From a virus: DNA of 28,269 nt. The DNA lies in the IMG/VR virus record IMGVR_UViG_3300022198_002179, positions 1 through 28,269 of that record. One strand, 5' to 3'. Within the stretch, counting starts at the first letter, position 1; the number at the start of each line of letters is the position of its first letter. A model generated the notes under the pieces. The model searched no databases and was not told the origin of the DNA. It was given only the letters and a program-made list of their open reading frames with translations. Shown piece after piece: positions 17,168 to 21,519 of this stretch. The position numbers were made by a program, and so were the translations under genes.

Positions 17168-17358
17168 TTCTTGCCCTTTGGCTCTGGATGGTTTGTCCTG
17201 ACATACGCGCCCAACTCGCGGGCTTGCCGCCATGCCTCGTCCTTGCTCACTGGTTGCTCCCACGGTGCGGCAGGCATAGTGACCAGCGCCACATAGCCAT
17301 AGCTGCCGCTGCTCTCGCCGGGGATGGCGCTGCGGATGATGCGGATTGTGGTGGTCAT
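17164..17358 (-). CDS. Small hypothetical protein (64 aa)
   Basis: A 64-residue protein starting MTTTIRIIRSAIPGESSGS, with a beta-type first half (GYVALVTMPA) and a helical, basic end (WRQARELGAYVRTNH). GGAGG stands 7 bases before its ATG, and it overlaps both neighbours by 4 bases, which supports real translation. A longer open frame to 17478 lies within the winged-helix gene and lacks a ribosome site. No domain recognised. It is co-transcribed with the DNA-binding protein upstream and the exported protein downstream. Confidence 0.72.
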   Translation of the reverse strand: MTTTIRIIRSAIPGESSGSYGYVALVTMPAAPWEQPVSKDEAWRQARELGAYVRTNHPEPKGKK

Positions 17359-17954
17359 TTCCCGTCCTCCAACCAATGCCGCATGGGTGCGTTGTTGCTG
17401 CGGCCTGTCCGCTCTGACCGGATGTTGAGCGCCTTTCTCGCGGTGGCGATCTTGTCCGCCGCCGATTTGTTGCTGCATCCCATGTGCGCCGCGAGGTCAG
17501 CCGTCAGACAGCCGGGGTTTGCTCGAATGAACGCCTCCACCATGTCGCGGATAGGGCTTTTCTTCACGCCGCTCTGTTCGGGCTGCTTGGCAATCGTAAA
17601 GCATCGCACTGGACGCCCTGTGGCTGGGTTCTTGCCCATTGACGCCTTGACGGTGCGGCGTTCCTCCATCCGGCTCAGAAGACTGGCGATGGATTTCGGC
17701 TCACGGTTAAAATGCGCTGCTATCTCGTGAACAGATGCGCCAGGGTTCTCTCTGACAAAATCAAATATCCTAGCCTCCGCGACTGGTCCACGCGCCTCTT
17801 GCACTGGTGGACGCTCTTTGTTGTGCCGTTTGTTGATTTCTTTGGCATCCGCTTTCATTGCGGCGATGAGTTCATCAAGGTTTGCAAATTGCGGCTTCGG
17901 CTTGTTTTCTGCGGTGCGAGAGATGCGGGGCTTGACGCTGTATGCTGTAATCAT
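17355..17954 (-). CDS. DNA-binding protein with two winged-helix domains
   Basis: The 199-residue protein has a basic N-terminal tail and two helix-turn-helix units. The first, about residues 60-103, includes GASVHEIAAHFNREPKSIASLLSRM. The second, about 132-175, includes CLTADLAAHMGCSNKSAADKI. Each is followed by a basic, wing-like segment. The tandem layout suggests a regulator or a protein that binds repeated sites. It follows the methyltransferase gene by a 4-base gap and overlaps the next gene by 4 bases. It could regulate the block it belongs to or the late genes; neither is shown. No ligand domain or catalytic motif is present. Confidence 0.78.
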   Translation of the reverse strand: MITAYSVKPRISRTAENKPKPQFANLDELIAAMKADAKEINKRHNKERPPVQEARGPVAEARIFDFVRENPGASVHEIAAHFNREPKSIASLLSRMEERRTVKASMGKNPATGRPVRCFTIAKQPEQSGVKKSPIRDMVEAFIRANPGCLTADLAAHMGCSNKSAADKIATARKALNIRSERTGRSNNAPMRHWLEDGK

Positions 17955-17958
17955 GGGT

Positions 17959-18954
17959 TTACTCCGCTGCGAAAAGGTCTGCGCCGTGCTGTTCGGCGTC
18001 TTTCAGATTCTTGTTGGCTTGGGCGGCATATTCCGGCTTGAGTTCAAAGCCGATATACTTGCGCCGCGCCTTGACCGCCTCGTATCCGGTAGAGCCTATG
18101 CCGTTGAACGGGTCCATGACCACATCGCCGGGTCGCGTATAGAGACGCAGGCACTTGCGGATAACGTCAAGCTGAAGCGGGCAAACGTGCTTTTCGTCGT
18201 TCGCTCCCTTGGCATCGCGGTAATTGCGCAGGACGTTACCTTGCTGAATGTCCATCCATACCGGGCTTGCGACACGCTGCCATTCCATCACGTCAAACTC
18301 TGCGTCTTTGATGAGTTCTGCCAACACTTCATCCGGCGGGGTTCCTGCGCAAAGCCCTTGCCGTGTAAGTTCGTCCAGCCATTCCTTGGCAATCTTTACG
18401 GCTTCCTTGTCGCTTGGTGCCGCATGTTGAATAGGCCGCTCGTTTGGTGCGTCCTTGCGAAAGAATAGCATGTAATCAGGCATCCCAACGCGGTTCATGG
18501 CGCTGTCTTTGCGGATCTGCTTGTAGAGCAAGCCGATGGCCTTGGTGCGCTGCATCTCGACCACTGGGTCTTTCCAGATTGTTGCGCGGCCATGATATAC
18601 CAGCCCCGCATCGCTGTGCGCCCTAATAAGGTCGCCAGAGAAGTCTTGTAGGCCGATGGCCCCGTGCTTGCCCTTGCGCATCGGCAGGTCGGTGCAGTGA
18701 ACACATGCAATCCGGCCAGGTCGAAGAACGCGCGTCAATGCCTCTGCAAAAAAACGATATTGCTCCATGAACGCTTCGCCTTCCCCAGCGTTGCCAAGGT
18801 CGCGCTCACTGTCGGAATAGACAAACAGATCACCAAACGGCGGGGAAAAGATGGCGCAATCAACGCTGTTCTGCGGCATCGCGTGCATACCTTCGATGCA
18901 ATCGCTGTTGTGGATGGCCCATCCGTTGCCCTGATATTCTGGCTGCTTAGTCAT
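17959..18954 (-). CDS. Site-specific DNA methyltransferase (beta order, IV then I)
   Basis: A 331-residue amino-methyltransferase. The N-terminus carries motif IV, IFSPPFGDLFVYSD (residues 35-48), and the C-terminus motif I, DVVMDPFNGIGSTG (277-290), with GFELK for AdoMet; that order defines the beta class. SPPF leaves N4-cytosine or N6-adenine both open. The stretch between holds CVHCTDLP and ATIWKDPVVEMQRT. The start at 18954 has AAGGAAG upstream and overlaps the helicase stop by 8 bases; a longer reading to 19005 lies inside the helicase gene. The operon with an SNF2-type helicase is reminiscent of restriction-modification or anti-restriction gene pairs, but no nuclease is present. Confidence 0.93.
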   Translation of the reverse strand: MTKQPEYQGNGWAIHNSDCIEGMHAMPQNSVDCAIFSPPFGDLFVYSDSERDLGNAGEGEAFMEQYRFFAEALTRVLRPGRIACVHCTDLPMRKGKHGAIGLQDFSGDLIRAHSDAGLVYHGRATIWKDPVVEMQRTKAIGLLYKQIRKDSAMNRVGMPDYMLFFRKDAPNERPIQHAAPSDKEAVKIAKEWLDELTRQGLCAGTPPDEVLAELIKDAEFDVMEWQRVASPVWMDIQQGNVLRNYRDAKGANDEKHVCPLQLDVIRKCLRLYTRPGDVVMDPFNGIGSTGYEAVKARRKYIGFELKPEYAAQANKNLKDAEQHGADLFAAE

Positions 18955-20335
18955 TGGTTTCTTCCTTAATCCAGTGCGGAAATGCGAGGTCCAGAGGACG
19001 GTCATACTTCACGCGGGTTTGAGTTTCAGATTGTGCGCGGCGCATAGCGTCTGACATGCGGCGCTTCATTTCTTCGTGCTTCTCGGCCTTGCCGTGAATG
19101 GCCCGCCAAATAGCGGCTTCTGTGTCTGCGATAACGATGTCGTTCCTGACCTGCTCCTTTTGCCCAAAGCGATGCGACCGCCGAACCGCCTGATAGTGTT
19201 GCTCGTATGAAAAGCTGATGCTGGCAAATACGGCATGTGCGCAATGTTGCCAGTTCACACCAAAGCCTGCAAGCTTTGGTTTGGTCACGATTGCCCGATA
19301 TTGCCCATCTGCAAAGCCCAATAGTCGCGCCTCTTTTTCTTCTGGCTTTTGGTCTCCCCTGACCTCAACAGCCCCGTCAATCATCTTCGTAAGCAATGCG
19401 CTCTCTTCGTTCGTTTCGCACCAGACCGTGACCGGCTTATCGTGGCTCGCCAGTTCCGCAGCGCGTTCGCAACGGTCTTGCATGGTCAGGCGCTTTTCTT
19501 GGTGGAAGCTGGTTGCGCTGAGTTCTGGGATACGGAATAGCATCCCTTGCTCTGCATCCGCCATTCGGTCGGCTGCGACCTGATGCAAGCGTCGGTCAAT
19601 ATCAGGCAAAACATATCCTGTATCGTCGCCACCTAGATCCGATGGTAGCGTTGCGCAGCGTGACCATGACGCCACCCATGACCAGAAGTCTTCTTGCGCG
19701 TGACCCTTCAACCGCCATTCCTGCGATGCCGTGCTGGTGTCGTTGATAAACCATTTTGACAGCATCTCCTGCTGTCGCATCACGCCAAGAAACTCCGCAT
19801 GGTTGCCAAGTTCCATGTGGTCATTCGGTGAAGGCGTAGCGGTCGCGGCCAGTTTGTAATTCAGACCATCAAACGCCTCCATCAACAGGTTGCGCGTGCG
19901 GCCGGCAAACGATTTCAGGATACTGCTTTCATCCAGAACGACGCCGCCAAACGATGCCGGATCTAGCTTTGACAAACGCTCATAGTTCGCCACCATGACG
20001 CCTGCGCCGACTTCGTGCTGCTCGCGTATCTGCCGCGCATCAATGCCAAACTTGACGCCCTCTCGGACCATCTGACCAGCAACTGCCAGCGGTGTCAGGA
20101 TTAGCACTGGCTTGCCGGTTTCCTCGGATACCTGCCGCGCCCATTCCAGTTCAATAAATGACTTGCCAAGCCCGGTGTCGAGAAACGCCGCGCTCTTGCC
20201 ACGGTTCAACGCGAAGTCCAGCGCGGCAATCTGGTGTTGCTTTGCCATGTCGTTGATTGGCTTCGGCGCAAAGCCCTGCATCGTCTGCGCTACCGCGCGT
20301 GATGCAATGAATTGACGGTATTCCTGAAGGCTCAT
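18947..20335 (-). CDS. SNF2-like DEAD/DEAH helicase
   Basis: The 462-residue protein has all superfamily 2 motifs: a Q-type motif near KQHQIAALDFAL (33-44), Walker A FLDTGLGKS (51-59), motif II VVLDESS (132-138), motif III AATATPSPND (163-172) and motif VI QAVRRSHRFGQK (382-393), the last being the SNF2 signature. Such proteins translocate on double-stranded DNA. In many phages an SNF2-type helicase of similar size sits in the replication region, often with a VRR-NUC nuclease, which I do not see here. The ATG overlaps the preceding small gene's stop by 4 bases, and the stop overlaps the methyltransferase start, implying linked production. Confidence 0.93.
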   Translation of the reverse strand: MSLQEYRQFIASRAVAQTMQGFAPKPINDMAKQHQIAALDFALNRGKSAAFLDTGLGKSFIELEWARQVSEETGKPVLILTPLAVAGQMVREGVKFGIDARQIREQHEVGAGVMVANYERLSKLDPASFGGVVLDESSILKSFAGRTRNLLMEAFDGLNYKLAATATPSPNDHMELGNHAEFLGVMRQQEMLSKWFINDTSTASQEWRLKGHAQEDFWSWVASWSRCATLPSDLGGDDTGYVLPDIDRRLHQVAADRMADAEQGMLFRIPELSATSFHQEKRLTMQDRCERAAELASHDKPVTVWCETNEESALLTKMIDGAVEVRGDQKPEEKEARLLGFADGQYRAIVTKPKLAGFGVNWQHCAHAVFASISFSYEQHYQAVRRSHRFGQKEQVRNDIVIADTEAAIWRAIHGKAEKHEEMKRRMSDAMRRAQSETQTRVKYDRPLDLAFPHWIKEETND

Positions 20336-20613
20336 TTTGTAACCTCCAAGTCATACTCCTCAAACTCAACTTCCATCTCTTGATAATTTTCACCAGAAAC
20401 CTCGTCGAGATGGCACAAAAAAACAGCATCGCTAAACATTCTTCCATGCGGAAAAACTTCTTTAACCATGCCGTCTTTGTGAAGATTCTTCATGACATAC
20501 CTGAACCACTCGCCCCTTTCGTCAAAAGCGCCTTCATAATGAGCCGCAATCGCCCGCGCTGTCAGCTCAACCTCTTTGCAGAGATATTTACTTATAAACA
20601 TTTTGCTAAACAT
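20332..20613 (-). CDS. Small hypothetical protein (93 aa), first gene of helicase operon
   Basis: The gene starts MFSKMFISKYLCKEVELTAR after a strong AGGAGGT ribosome site 6 bases upstream; the open frame upstream of that ATG is unlikely to be translated. It contains AIAAHYEGAFDERGEWFRYV and ends in an acidic segment (EMEVEFEEYDLEVTK). No domain recognised; the acidic tail could mimic DNA or mediate partner binding. It is preceded by about 155 bases with a structured leader and hexamer repeats, and followed by the helicase with a 4-base overlap. The long leader hints at regulation of the whole operon. Confidence 0.8.
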   Translation of the reverse strand: MFSKMFISKYLCKEVELTARAIAAHYEGAFDERGEWFRYVMKNLHKDGMVKEVFPHGRMFSDAVFLCHLDEVSGENYQEMEVEFEEYDLEVTK

Positions 20614-20645
20614 AGTGCGACCTCCTATCGCTCTCCCTGAGAGAT

Positions 20646-20697
20646 GCACGGCCAGCCGGGGGAGGTTCCGGTGTTCGGTAGCTAACCTAGGCCGTGC
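20646..20697 (-). ncRNA. Structured 5' leader, possible pseudoknot
   Basis: On the minus strand GCACGGCC (20690-20697) pairs with GGCCGTGC (20646-20653), an 8-base-pair closing stem. Inside, CCGG (20668-20671) pairs with CCGG (20656-20659). Part of that loop, AACCT (20663-20667), is complementary to AGGTT (20684-20688) outside the hairpin, which would form an H-type pseudoknot or an alternative nested helix. A small CTCTC/GAGAG hairpin lies between this and the AGGAGGT ribosome site. This could be a cis-regulatory RNA of the helicase operon. I match no known riboswitch class. Confidence 0.42.
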
Positions 20698-20734
20698 GTT
20701 CTGATGCTATCATTCACAAGTCAGGGTGCAATCT

Positions 20735-20768
20735 GCAAAACTGCAAACTAACCTGCAAACTTGCAAAG
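20735..20768. repeat. Direct-repeat operator candidates C1 and C2
   Basis: Four TGCAAA hexamers in one orientation: GCAAAACTGCAAAC (20735-20748) and GCAAACTTGCAAAG (20755-20768), each pair at 8-base spacing. They fill the space just after the ssb stop and before the structured leader. I found no good promoter pair with them, so they may bind a regulator that affects a weak promoter, read-through, or replication. Confidence 0.5.
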
Positions 20769-20770
20769 CC

Positions 20771-21160
20771 TCAGAATGGTATCTCGTCATCGAACCCTTG
20801 CTGCGCAGGCTGTTCAGGCGCTTGGTAGTTGTCCTGACGCGGCTCGTTCCCTCCTTGGCTATTGCCACCCATAAACGTCAGGTCGTTGACGCTGATGCCC
20901 AGATACGCCTTGCCATTGTGTTCTCGCGCTGTCGGTCGGCCTGTAAGAACCACCTTCGTTCCCTTGGTGATATACCGCTCAAGGCTTTCGGCCCGCTTGC
21001 CCCAGATACTGCAATCGAACCATGTGCTGTCGCGCTTGTTGCCGTTTTTGTCCTTGCCGTTGTCCACTGCTACGGAAAACCCAAGAACGGCGTCACCGTT
21101 GCCTGTGCGGCGAAGTTCAGCGTCTTTGCCGACGTTGCCCGCGATTGTTAGCTGTTGCAT
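20771..21160 (-). CDS. ssb: Single-stranded DNA-binding protein
   Basis: A 129-residue SSB of the bacterial type. The OB-fold region runs from MQQLTIAGNVGKDAELRRTG through DSTWFDCSIWGKRAE to LTGRPTAREHNGKAYLGISV, with the conserved aromatic positions. A Gly/Gln-rich linker follows, and the protein ends in DDEIPF, the acidic tail that binds replication and recombination partners. It works with the annealing protein and exonuclease of the early operon. The ATG at 21160 overlaps the preceding stop (TGATG); a longer reading to 21235 lies in the upstream gene. It is slightly shorter than host SSBs, usual for phages. Confidence 0.97.
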   Translation of the reverse strand: MQQLTIAGNVGKDAELRRTGNGDAVLGFSVAVDNGKDKNGNKRDSTWFDCSIWGKRAESLERYITKGTKVVLTGRPTAREHNGKAYLGISVNDLTFMGGNSQGGNEPRQDNYQAPEQPAQQGFDDEIPF

Positions 21161-21519
21161 CAAAAATATCCCTGTGAATGATCTGCTGTAGCGCGTCCGC
21201 AAAACCCGTTTACCAACGGAACCTTGCGTATCCATCGCTGCCCCCGCGCTTTAGGCAACTTGTCTTGCGCCGACCTGTGATAGCCCTTTGCCGTTTCCGG
21301 CCCGTCCTTTTCCCAGCCCTCACCATCCGGCATTGGCGGCGCTTTTTCGTTGTCGGGGCGCAAGCCGTCAGGAGTTTCCATCAGGTTGTCTGTTTCGATG
21401 TATTCGTGAGAACGGCCAACTCTGGCCCATGCCATGCACTCGTCGCCAATGCACGGCTTAAAGTCGTTCCACGGGCATTTGTAATTTTCAGCATCGTTTT
21501 TATTAATTACCGGCATCAT
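21160..21519 (-). CDS. Cys-containing hypothetical protein (119 aa)
   Basis: The protein starts MMPVINKNDAENYKCPWNDF and has three closely spaced cysteines (C15, C23 and C28 in KCPW, KPCIG and DECMAW), with a fourth near the end (NGFCGRA). A zinc or iron-sulfur site is possible. I recall similar C-P-x(n)-C-x-G-x-x-C proteins next to ssb in other phages, without a known function. Two adjacent ATGs are possible; the second is better spaced from the AGGGAGAGC ribosome site. It overlaps the GapR-like gene's stop and the ssb start, so all are co-translated. Confidence 0.8.
   Translation of the reverse strand: MMPVINKNDAENYKCPWNDFKPCIGDECMAWARVGRSHEYIETDNLMETPDGLRPDNEKAPPMPDGEGWEKDGPETAKGYHRSAQDKLPKARGQRWIRKVPLVNGFCGRATADHSQGYF

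Follow-up and report, generated by a model that had tools for sequence, protein, structure and literature searches.

Between two genes of the viral DNA analysed here, a stretch of 28,269 nucleotides (IMG/VR record IMGVR_UViG_3300022198_002179, positions 1 to 28,269) that is referred to as the window, lies an untranslated gap of 157 nt, which raises the question of whether it carries a regulatory RNA and, if so, of what kind. The gap (20614-20770, minus strand) extends from the stop of a gene for a single-stranded DNA-binding protein (ORF end 20771) to the ATG at 20613-20611 of the next gene, and the coordinates given for it in a preliminary description, which took it for a possible riboswitch-like leader, hold. 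The neighbouring genes are:

20771-21235, minus strand: single-stranded DNA-binding protein (SSB) gene, upstream of the leader (phrog_44, 2.4e-29)
20332-20613, minus strand: first gene behind the leader, a 93-aa orphan with ATG at 20613 (ORF list; alternative GTG start at 20649)
18947-20335, minus strand: DNA helicase, second gene of the operon (phrog_62, 2.3e-58)
17959-19005, minus strand: DNA methyltransferase, third gene (phrog_67, 6.8e-44)

The 93-aa gene overlaps the helicase start. A PHROG search with the 105-aa form of the orphan (GTG start) gave no match, and a single related locus was found among viral contigs, in a near-identical phage (L020) that has the window's genes at 100% identity where these fall within the locus. 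The window resembles ordinary tailed-phage DNA, with terminase- and portal-like ORFs named by eye from the ORF list, and no integrase was seen by eye among its ORFs.

The RNA in the gap belongs to a known family in an unusual place. A permissive Rfam scan of 20550-20850 (E up to 1) returned RF02996, the int-alpA RNA, as its sole match, at full length (model 1-71; window 20635-20697, minus strand) and with 52.1 bits against a cut-off of 35.8 (E = 3e-8 when the whole window is scanned); the consensus pairs are kept, no non-standard pair is marked, and the earlier statement that no known class could be recognised is thereby superseded. The window copy has the same three-stem fold and AGGG tail as the family, but it is located between the SSB gene and the orphan gene plus helicase instead of between an integrase and alpA, the location that gave the family its name and that is not part of the model. 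A core-only model (R1, P1 to P1') matches at 20646-20697. By its folding energy alone the leader stands out only modestly (z = -2.16; 4 of 200 shuffled sequences fold as well), and it is the Rfam match and the covariation in relatives that show the structured leader to be real and beyond chance. Rfam's structure line for RF02996 contains P1, P2, P3 and an unpaired tail, and the model ends before the hairpin P5 and the Shine-Dalgarno (SD) sequence. The following elements were distinguished in the window:

20635-20697, minus strand: int-alpA RNA core plus 3' tail (RF02996, model 1-71; Rfam match)
20690-20697, minus strand: P1 5' arm, GCACGGCC (pairing; 96.2% of P1 cells paired in relatives)
20646-20653, minus strand: P1 3' arm, GGCCGUGC (pairing; relatives)
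20677-20687, minus strand: P2 hairpin, GGU-UAGCU-ACC (pairing; relatives)
20656-20671, minus strand: P3 hairpin, CCGG-AACCUCCC-CCGG (arms 20668-20671 with 20656-20659; relatives)
20660-20667, minus strand: P3 apical loop, AACCUCCC, complementary to the tail and the SD (family tests)
20633-20637, minus strand: 3' tail GGGAG, predicted to form a 5-bp pseudoknot with the P3 loop (family tests)
20617-20631, minus strand: P5 hairpin, GCGAU-AGGAG-GUCGC, presenting the SD (fold; control against other SD-led ORFs)
20620-20625, minus strand: predicted SD GGAGGU, putative alternative partner of the P3 loop over 6 bp (family tests)

Much of the architecture previously proposed is recovered: the 8-bp closing stem corresponds to P1 (20690-20697 with 20646-20653), which covaries in relatives, and the CCGG hairpin with a loop complementing a distal segment corresponds to P3, of which the loop-to-tail pairing likewise covaries. 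The small hairpin that had been placed just before the ribosome site is present as well, but it encloses that site (20617-20631) rather than preceding it. In the P3 loop, CUCCC (20660-20664) complements the tail GGGAG (20633-20637) and ACCUCC (20661-20666) complements the SD GGAGGU (20620-20625), and the latter pairing would need two inner P5 pairs to open. In the energy fold a local hairpin, CUCUC-AGG-GAGAG (20632-20645, minus strand), competes with the tail pseudoknot. An intrinsic terminator scan of the leader returned P5 itself, before the start codon, as the sole terminator-like site.

The gap between the SSB gene and the RNA has features of its own. Five TTGCA-type repeats (TTTGCAAG, TTTGCAG, TTTGCAG, TTTTGCAG and ATTGCA; 20727-20767, minus strand) join a long hairpin in the RNA fold of the window leader; they are nearly identical in six related loci (L005, L019, L020, L022, L029 and L033), absent from L012 and L003, and possibly represent an operator or iterons. 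Closer to the RNA, TTGCAC, 16 nt, TAGCAT and 6 nt to P1 (20698-20731, minus strand) form a weak promoter-like layout that would start a transcript at P1; TAGCAT is kept in 7 of the 8 relatives read, the exception being L003, and the promoter scan did not report this site.

Relatives were collected from viral and bacterial sequences. A search with the core pattern yielded 33 viral contigs, 18 of them over the Rfam cut-off, and at least 119 stretches in bacterial genomes, and 42 of the 43 genomes taken from the latter list passed Rfam. A genome survey with the Rfam model, not selected by the core pattern and using filters that can miss weak copies, covered the order to which a Candidatus Desulfobacillus genome (L128) belongs, with 80 of 399 genomes over cut-off, and a sample of the phylum of a Granulosicoccaceae genome (L124), with 51 of 398; none of 14 control genomes had an RF02996 match. 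Searching for the element by DNA similarity turned up no usable match in phages and two plasmid records, and one of two E. coli queries returned nothing. The survey loci, for which 100 further regions were fetched, are the best places per search together with lower-scoring places picked by hand, and thus a subset of the places listed. Some stretches hold two or three int-alpA copies (L356, 2664-5157; L343, 3011-3755; L300, 3092-11214) and look as if the leader had been duplicated along with its gene slot; in one L255/L356 copy P1 is imperfect, and neither an SD hairpin nor a start can be made out clearly.

For the seed alignment, 72 pattern matches passed the filter, 12 were removed by eye, and 43 of the 48 distinct cores left were aligned. 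The core-only model was run on 155 survey loci, the window and L173, and gave 146 matches including the window; 15 survey loci, placed by Rfam, and L173 had no match at E 0.01, and those 15 stand outside the statistics. One match had too little downstream DNA and three lacked a P3 in the parser, leaving 142 rows (139 distinct), in 133 of which a start codon lies 26-49 nt beyond the core; 130 of these 133 have a P5 (127 distinct). As the core model holds nothing 3' of P1', features downstream of it are independent observations.

The stems of the core covary among homologous leaders, the check that the preliminary description had named. In the seed alignment 94.4% of cells are paired, against 76.7% after shuffling, with 109 both-side changes against 29.1, and structures slid along the alignment pair just 35-45%. 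One result is weak: 11 pairs show a both-side change, which is not unusual (9.1 after shuffling, with 40 of 500 shuffles reaching 11). The seed was selected with fixed motifs, so that motif invariance within it is by construction; in the distinct survey cores, UA follows P1 in 132 of 139, CU precedes P1' in 107 of 139, and GAA is present around the P2-P3 joint in 126 of 139. Among 143 survey copies, position -2 before P1 is never G and positions -3/-2 are rich in A or T, and because of this bias the 5' end of the conserved RNA may lie a few bases before that of the Rfam model. The apical loops of P2 show a small number of types; besides GACG, several palindromic ones occur (AGCU, GAUC, GGCC), and a loop-loop contact is possible.

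Behind the core, a start codon is found at a nearly constant distance. In 112 of 139 distinct copies (113 of 142 rows), an ORF that begins with ATG, has at least 30 codons and is preceded by a purine-rich SD starts 28-42 nt downstream of the core, compared with 1813 of 26976 random positions (6.7%) of the same loci; no start codon lay in the searched range in 9 of 142 rows. In all 17 viral copies over the Rfam cut-off, window and twin left aside, a start codon with a frame of at least 30 codons lies 27-36 nt downstream of the core. The 15 loci missed by the core model, read with Rfam coordinates, have an ATG-led ORF close behind in 13 cases (not L350 and L352), and two E. coli copies over the cut-off show the leader layout; in one of these (L359) the RefSeq start of a hypothetical gene is the ATG predicted from the RNA. 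The locus L142, one of the 12 removed from the seed by eye, is a true member by Rfam (50.1 bits); it has the core, but a tail, P5 and SD are not clearly recognisable.

The SD sits in the 3' hairpin P5 just before the start codon, a hairpin that the Rfam model does not contain. Other SD-led ORFs from these loci served as the control: 50 of 402 reach a P5 score of at least 11, whereas the leaders do so in 82 of 133 cases (Fisher p = 2e-27), and at a threshold of 9 the counts are 141 of 402 and 104 of 133; 51 of the 133 pre-start segments score below 11. The stem itself varies (GCGA/UCGC in the window, CGC/GCG in L022, GCAC/GUGC in L021, CUGU/ACAG in L247).

The P3 loop matches both the tail and the SD of its own leader better than those of others. 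The matched tail pairing score is 13.6 against 10.5 after permutation and the matched P5-loop pairing score 11.7 against 9.4, both above all 300 permutations; the excess persists on both sides with one copy per downstream-protein group (n = 85), and that of the loop-SD pairing also when the SD window is chosen without folding. Kinship was controlled for by comparing each copy with its nearest relative that has a different P3 loop (n = 112): a copy's own tail gave the better match in 70 cases and the worse in 19, with 23 ties, and for the P5 loop the corresponding figures are 66, 26 and 20. Watson-Crick runs of at least 6 occur between P3 loop and tail in 53 of 127 copies (permuted mean 13) and between P3 loop and SD window in 52 of 127 (permuted mean 15). 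Part of the loop-SD match is expected, because loop and SD are complementary in composition, and mismatched loop/partner pairs reach 5 bp in 18-30%. Leaders with off-type loops (not CCU/CCC; L335, L355 and L284) match both tail and SD region, the P3 loop of L232 matches the P5 loop over 9 bp, and a subfamily of ten copies missed by the core model (L325, L326, L334, L336, L337, L338, L344, L345, L347 and L349) combines, by eye, CCUGG within the loop with CAGG in the tail and the SD CAGGAG, a further type of loop to which both partners fit.

Where both helices are at least 4 bp long, at least 3 loop bases are common to both in 102 of 105 copies, and since the same loop bases are used, the two pairings exclude each other. 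Covariation of one loop with tail and SD, together with this mutually exclusive use, would place the int-alpA RNA among alternative-pseudoknot translational leaders. As isolated strands, the mean duplex energies of the two sides are close (tail -6.8, SD -7.6 kcal/mol; in the window -8.7 and -10.4 kcal/mol, respectively), the stronger side being the SD in 81 of 130 copies and the tail in 44 of 130. With geometry ignored, such close energies would fit a balanced switch.

The genes around the RNA differ widely. The longest upstream ORF with its stop within 600 nt was picked mechanically in 127 copies, so that some of these may not be genes; 122 are at least 100 aa long, and among the 116 scanned, 75 match an integrase family and one an SSB family. 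In 63 of 127 copies the upstream stop lies at most 25 nt from P1, compared with 76 nt for the SSB stop in the window. Downstream, 122 proteins fall into 75 single-linkage similarity groups, between which distant kinship is possible, with 59 singletons and largest groups of 16 and 15. The 121 of 133 downstream proteins that were scanned mostly lack a family match; 13 Pfam and 16 PHROG families occur, each with one member except for one Pfam family with two. In 7 of 133 copies a strict pattern finds an AlpA-like motif in the downstream DNA read, which extends up to 3 kb. Two candidate common themes were rejected: anti-phage cargo, as PADLOC assigned just six models with one member each to the 121 proteins, and a common C-terminal motif, found in 5 of 122 only.

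Among the close kin of the window, six relatives besides the twin also have the RNA behind an SSB-like gene, and in none of these is the next gene that of the window: in L022 it is the helicase directly, and in L005, L012, L019, L029 and L033 it encodes a relative of the 199-aa protein of the window (17355-17954). L003, which has no SSB match, likewise has a relative of this protein behind its RNA. In the leaders of these kin the P3 loop and tail are constant and the P5 stem differs, with the exception of L005, which has no clear P5; constancy of loop and tail with a varying P5 stem is as expected if the leader were retained and adapted anew to each gene. Among 5426 E. coli genomes, 124 contain a match, at 84% identity, to a 44-nt stretch of survey copy L256; the one read, L359, passes the Rfam cut-off and has the order tRNA-Gly, integrase, RNA, hypothetical gene, HTH regulator. 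Another copy (L360, 4496-4562, 60.6 bits) lies in an E. coli record filed as a 4.9 Mb plasmid, probably a chromosome, with isrK and C4 RNAs 3 kb beyond it.

Sequence comparison thus establishes the core structure, its place before a start codon, P5, and the covariation of one loop with both partners. From these it appears reasonably probable that the int-alpA RNA is a cis-acting leader, probably with two states, that governs translation initiation of the next gene; alternative pairings before a strong ribosome site had been proposed for the window, and the comparison of relatives backs that proposal. The leader would consist of a three-way-junction core (P1, P2, P3), a purine tail, and P5 carrying the SD before the start codon. 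Pairing of the P3 loop with the tail in a pseudoknot would leave the SD free and translation on, and pairing of the loop with the SD would hide the SD and turn translation off. We infer that both states form in the cell. Their balance could be set by a ligand or protein at the junction, or by ribosome traffic on the upstream gene. The conserved junction is likely the sensor; the close upstream stop suggests ribosome traffic as the input for many copies, a suggestion that does not extend to the window because of the 76 nt between SSB stop and P1.

Other readings have to be weighed against a two-state leader. A passive leader, i.e., a stable structure that insulates or tunes the next gene through spacing, mRNA protection or upstream coupling without switching, would agree with the proximity of the upstream stop to P1 in half of the copies, which suggests a compact intergenic module, and with the lack of a shared function among downstream genes; it would leave unexplained why the P3 loop tracks both tail and SD and why unpaired junction bases are conserved (UA, CU), and is considered somewhat unlikely. 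The small-molecule riboswitch of the preliminary description, with AdoMet as a conceivable ligand, draws on the resemblance of the compact junction with conserved unpaired bases to an aptamer and of the SD-linked alternative pairing to a translational expression platform. The scans of the window, however, matched no known riboswitch family and the downstream genes share no metabolic theme, which renders this reading unlikely. Its AdoMet version was rejected: neither SAM nor SAH classes matched in 20550-20850 (E up to 1), the downstream proteins are diverse, and methyltransferase families are rare among the 121 scanned (one Methyltransf_11 and one Methyltransf_23 in Pfam, and one PHROG methyltransferase).

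A protein of the mobile element or host could instead bind the RNA as a translational operator, in this phage with SSB as the first candidate. The six relatives that keep the RNA behind an SSB-like gene while the next gene changes would suit such an operator, and there is precedent in the T4 gp32 protein, which binds a pseudoknot in its own mRNA. However, the upstream ORF is usually an integrase in the survey, and the named phage with the most similar SSB, Sulfitobacter phage NYA-2014a, has no core-model match in the 6.9 kb read, so that an operator seems distinctly doubtful. Least probable, and quite improbable, is a trans-acting sRNA, a free transcript that would pair with other mRNAs through the pyrimidine-rich loop. 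Rfam assigns RF02996 the type 'Gene; sRNA', the anti-SD-like loop could in principle reach many SDs, and int-alpA is listed among the small RNA matches in E. coli genomes in one paper, the only one among the papers searched that was found to name the family. On the other side, the start codon lies at a near-fixed distance, the SD hairpin is coupled to the core, and no general promoter-like signal at P1 was seen across 143 copies; this arrangement argues for action in cis rather than for the trans-acting type given by Rfam.

A two-state leader has parallels among known systems. SAM-II and preQ1-II are pseudoknot translational riboswitches, in which, similarly, a compact pseudoknot by the SD could govern translation; neither has an Rfam match here, and in the int-alpA RNA the SD lies in a separate hairpin and competes with the tail for one loop. 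The ribosomal-protein leader pseudoknots of S15 and the alpha operon and the T4 gene 32 pseudoknot share alternative or pseudoknotted folds at a ribosome site, but each serves one cognate gene, whereas int-alpA leaders precede many different genes. The E. coli copy between integrase and HTH regulator recalls AlpA-type phage satellites (E. coli PICIs), in contrast to the window with its tailed-phage character and no integrase seen. The int-alpA family was reportedly first described by Weinberg and others in 2017; Rfam's model, the basis of this comparison, contains neither P5 nor the SD nor the double pairing.

Tentatively, and with somewhat less than even confidence, the family may be viewed as a portable two-state switch, in which an anti-SD loop would shuttle between the real SD and the tail as its decoy, and which mobile elements across Pseudomonadota would set before ever-changing orphan genes behind their integrase, such that translation of the first accessory gene would require a shared signal. 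The int-alpA RNA is common in the sampled genomes (80 of 399 and 51 of 398 over cut-off). If the cis-leader reading is true, it would gain a testable function and its sRNA label would come into question, a set of unknown mobile-element genes would be under one shared translational control and, in this phage, a replication operon would be under the control of the leader.
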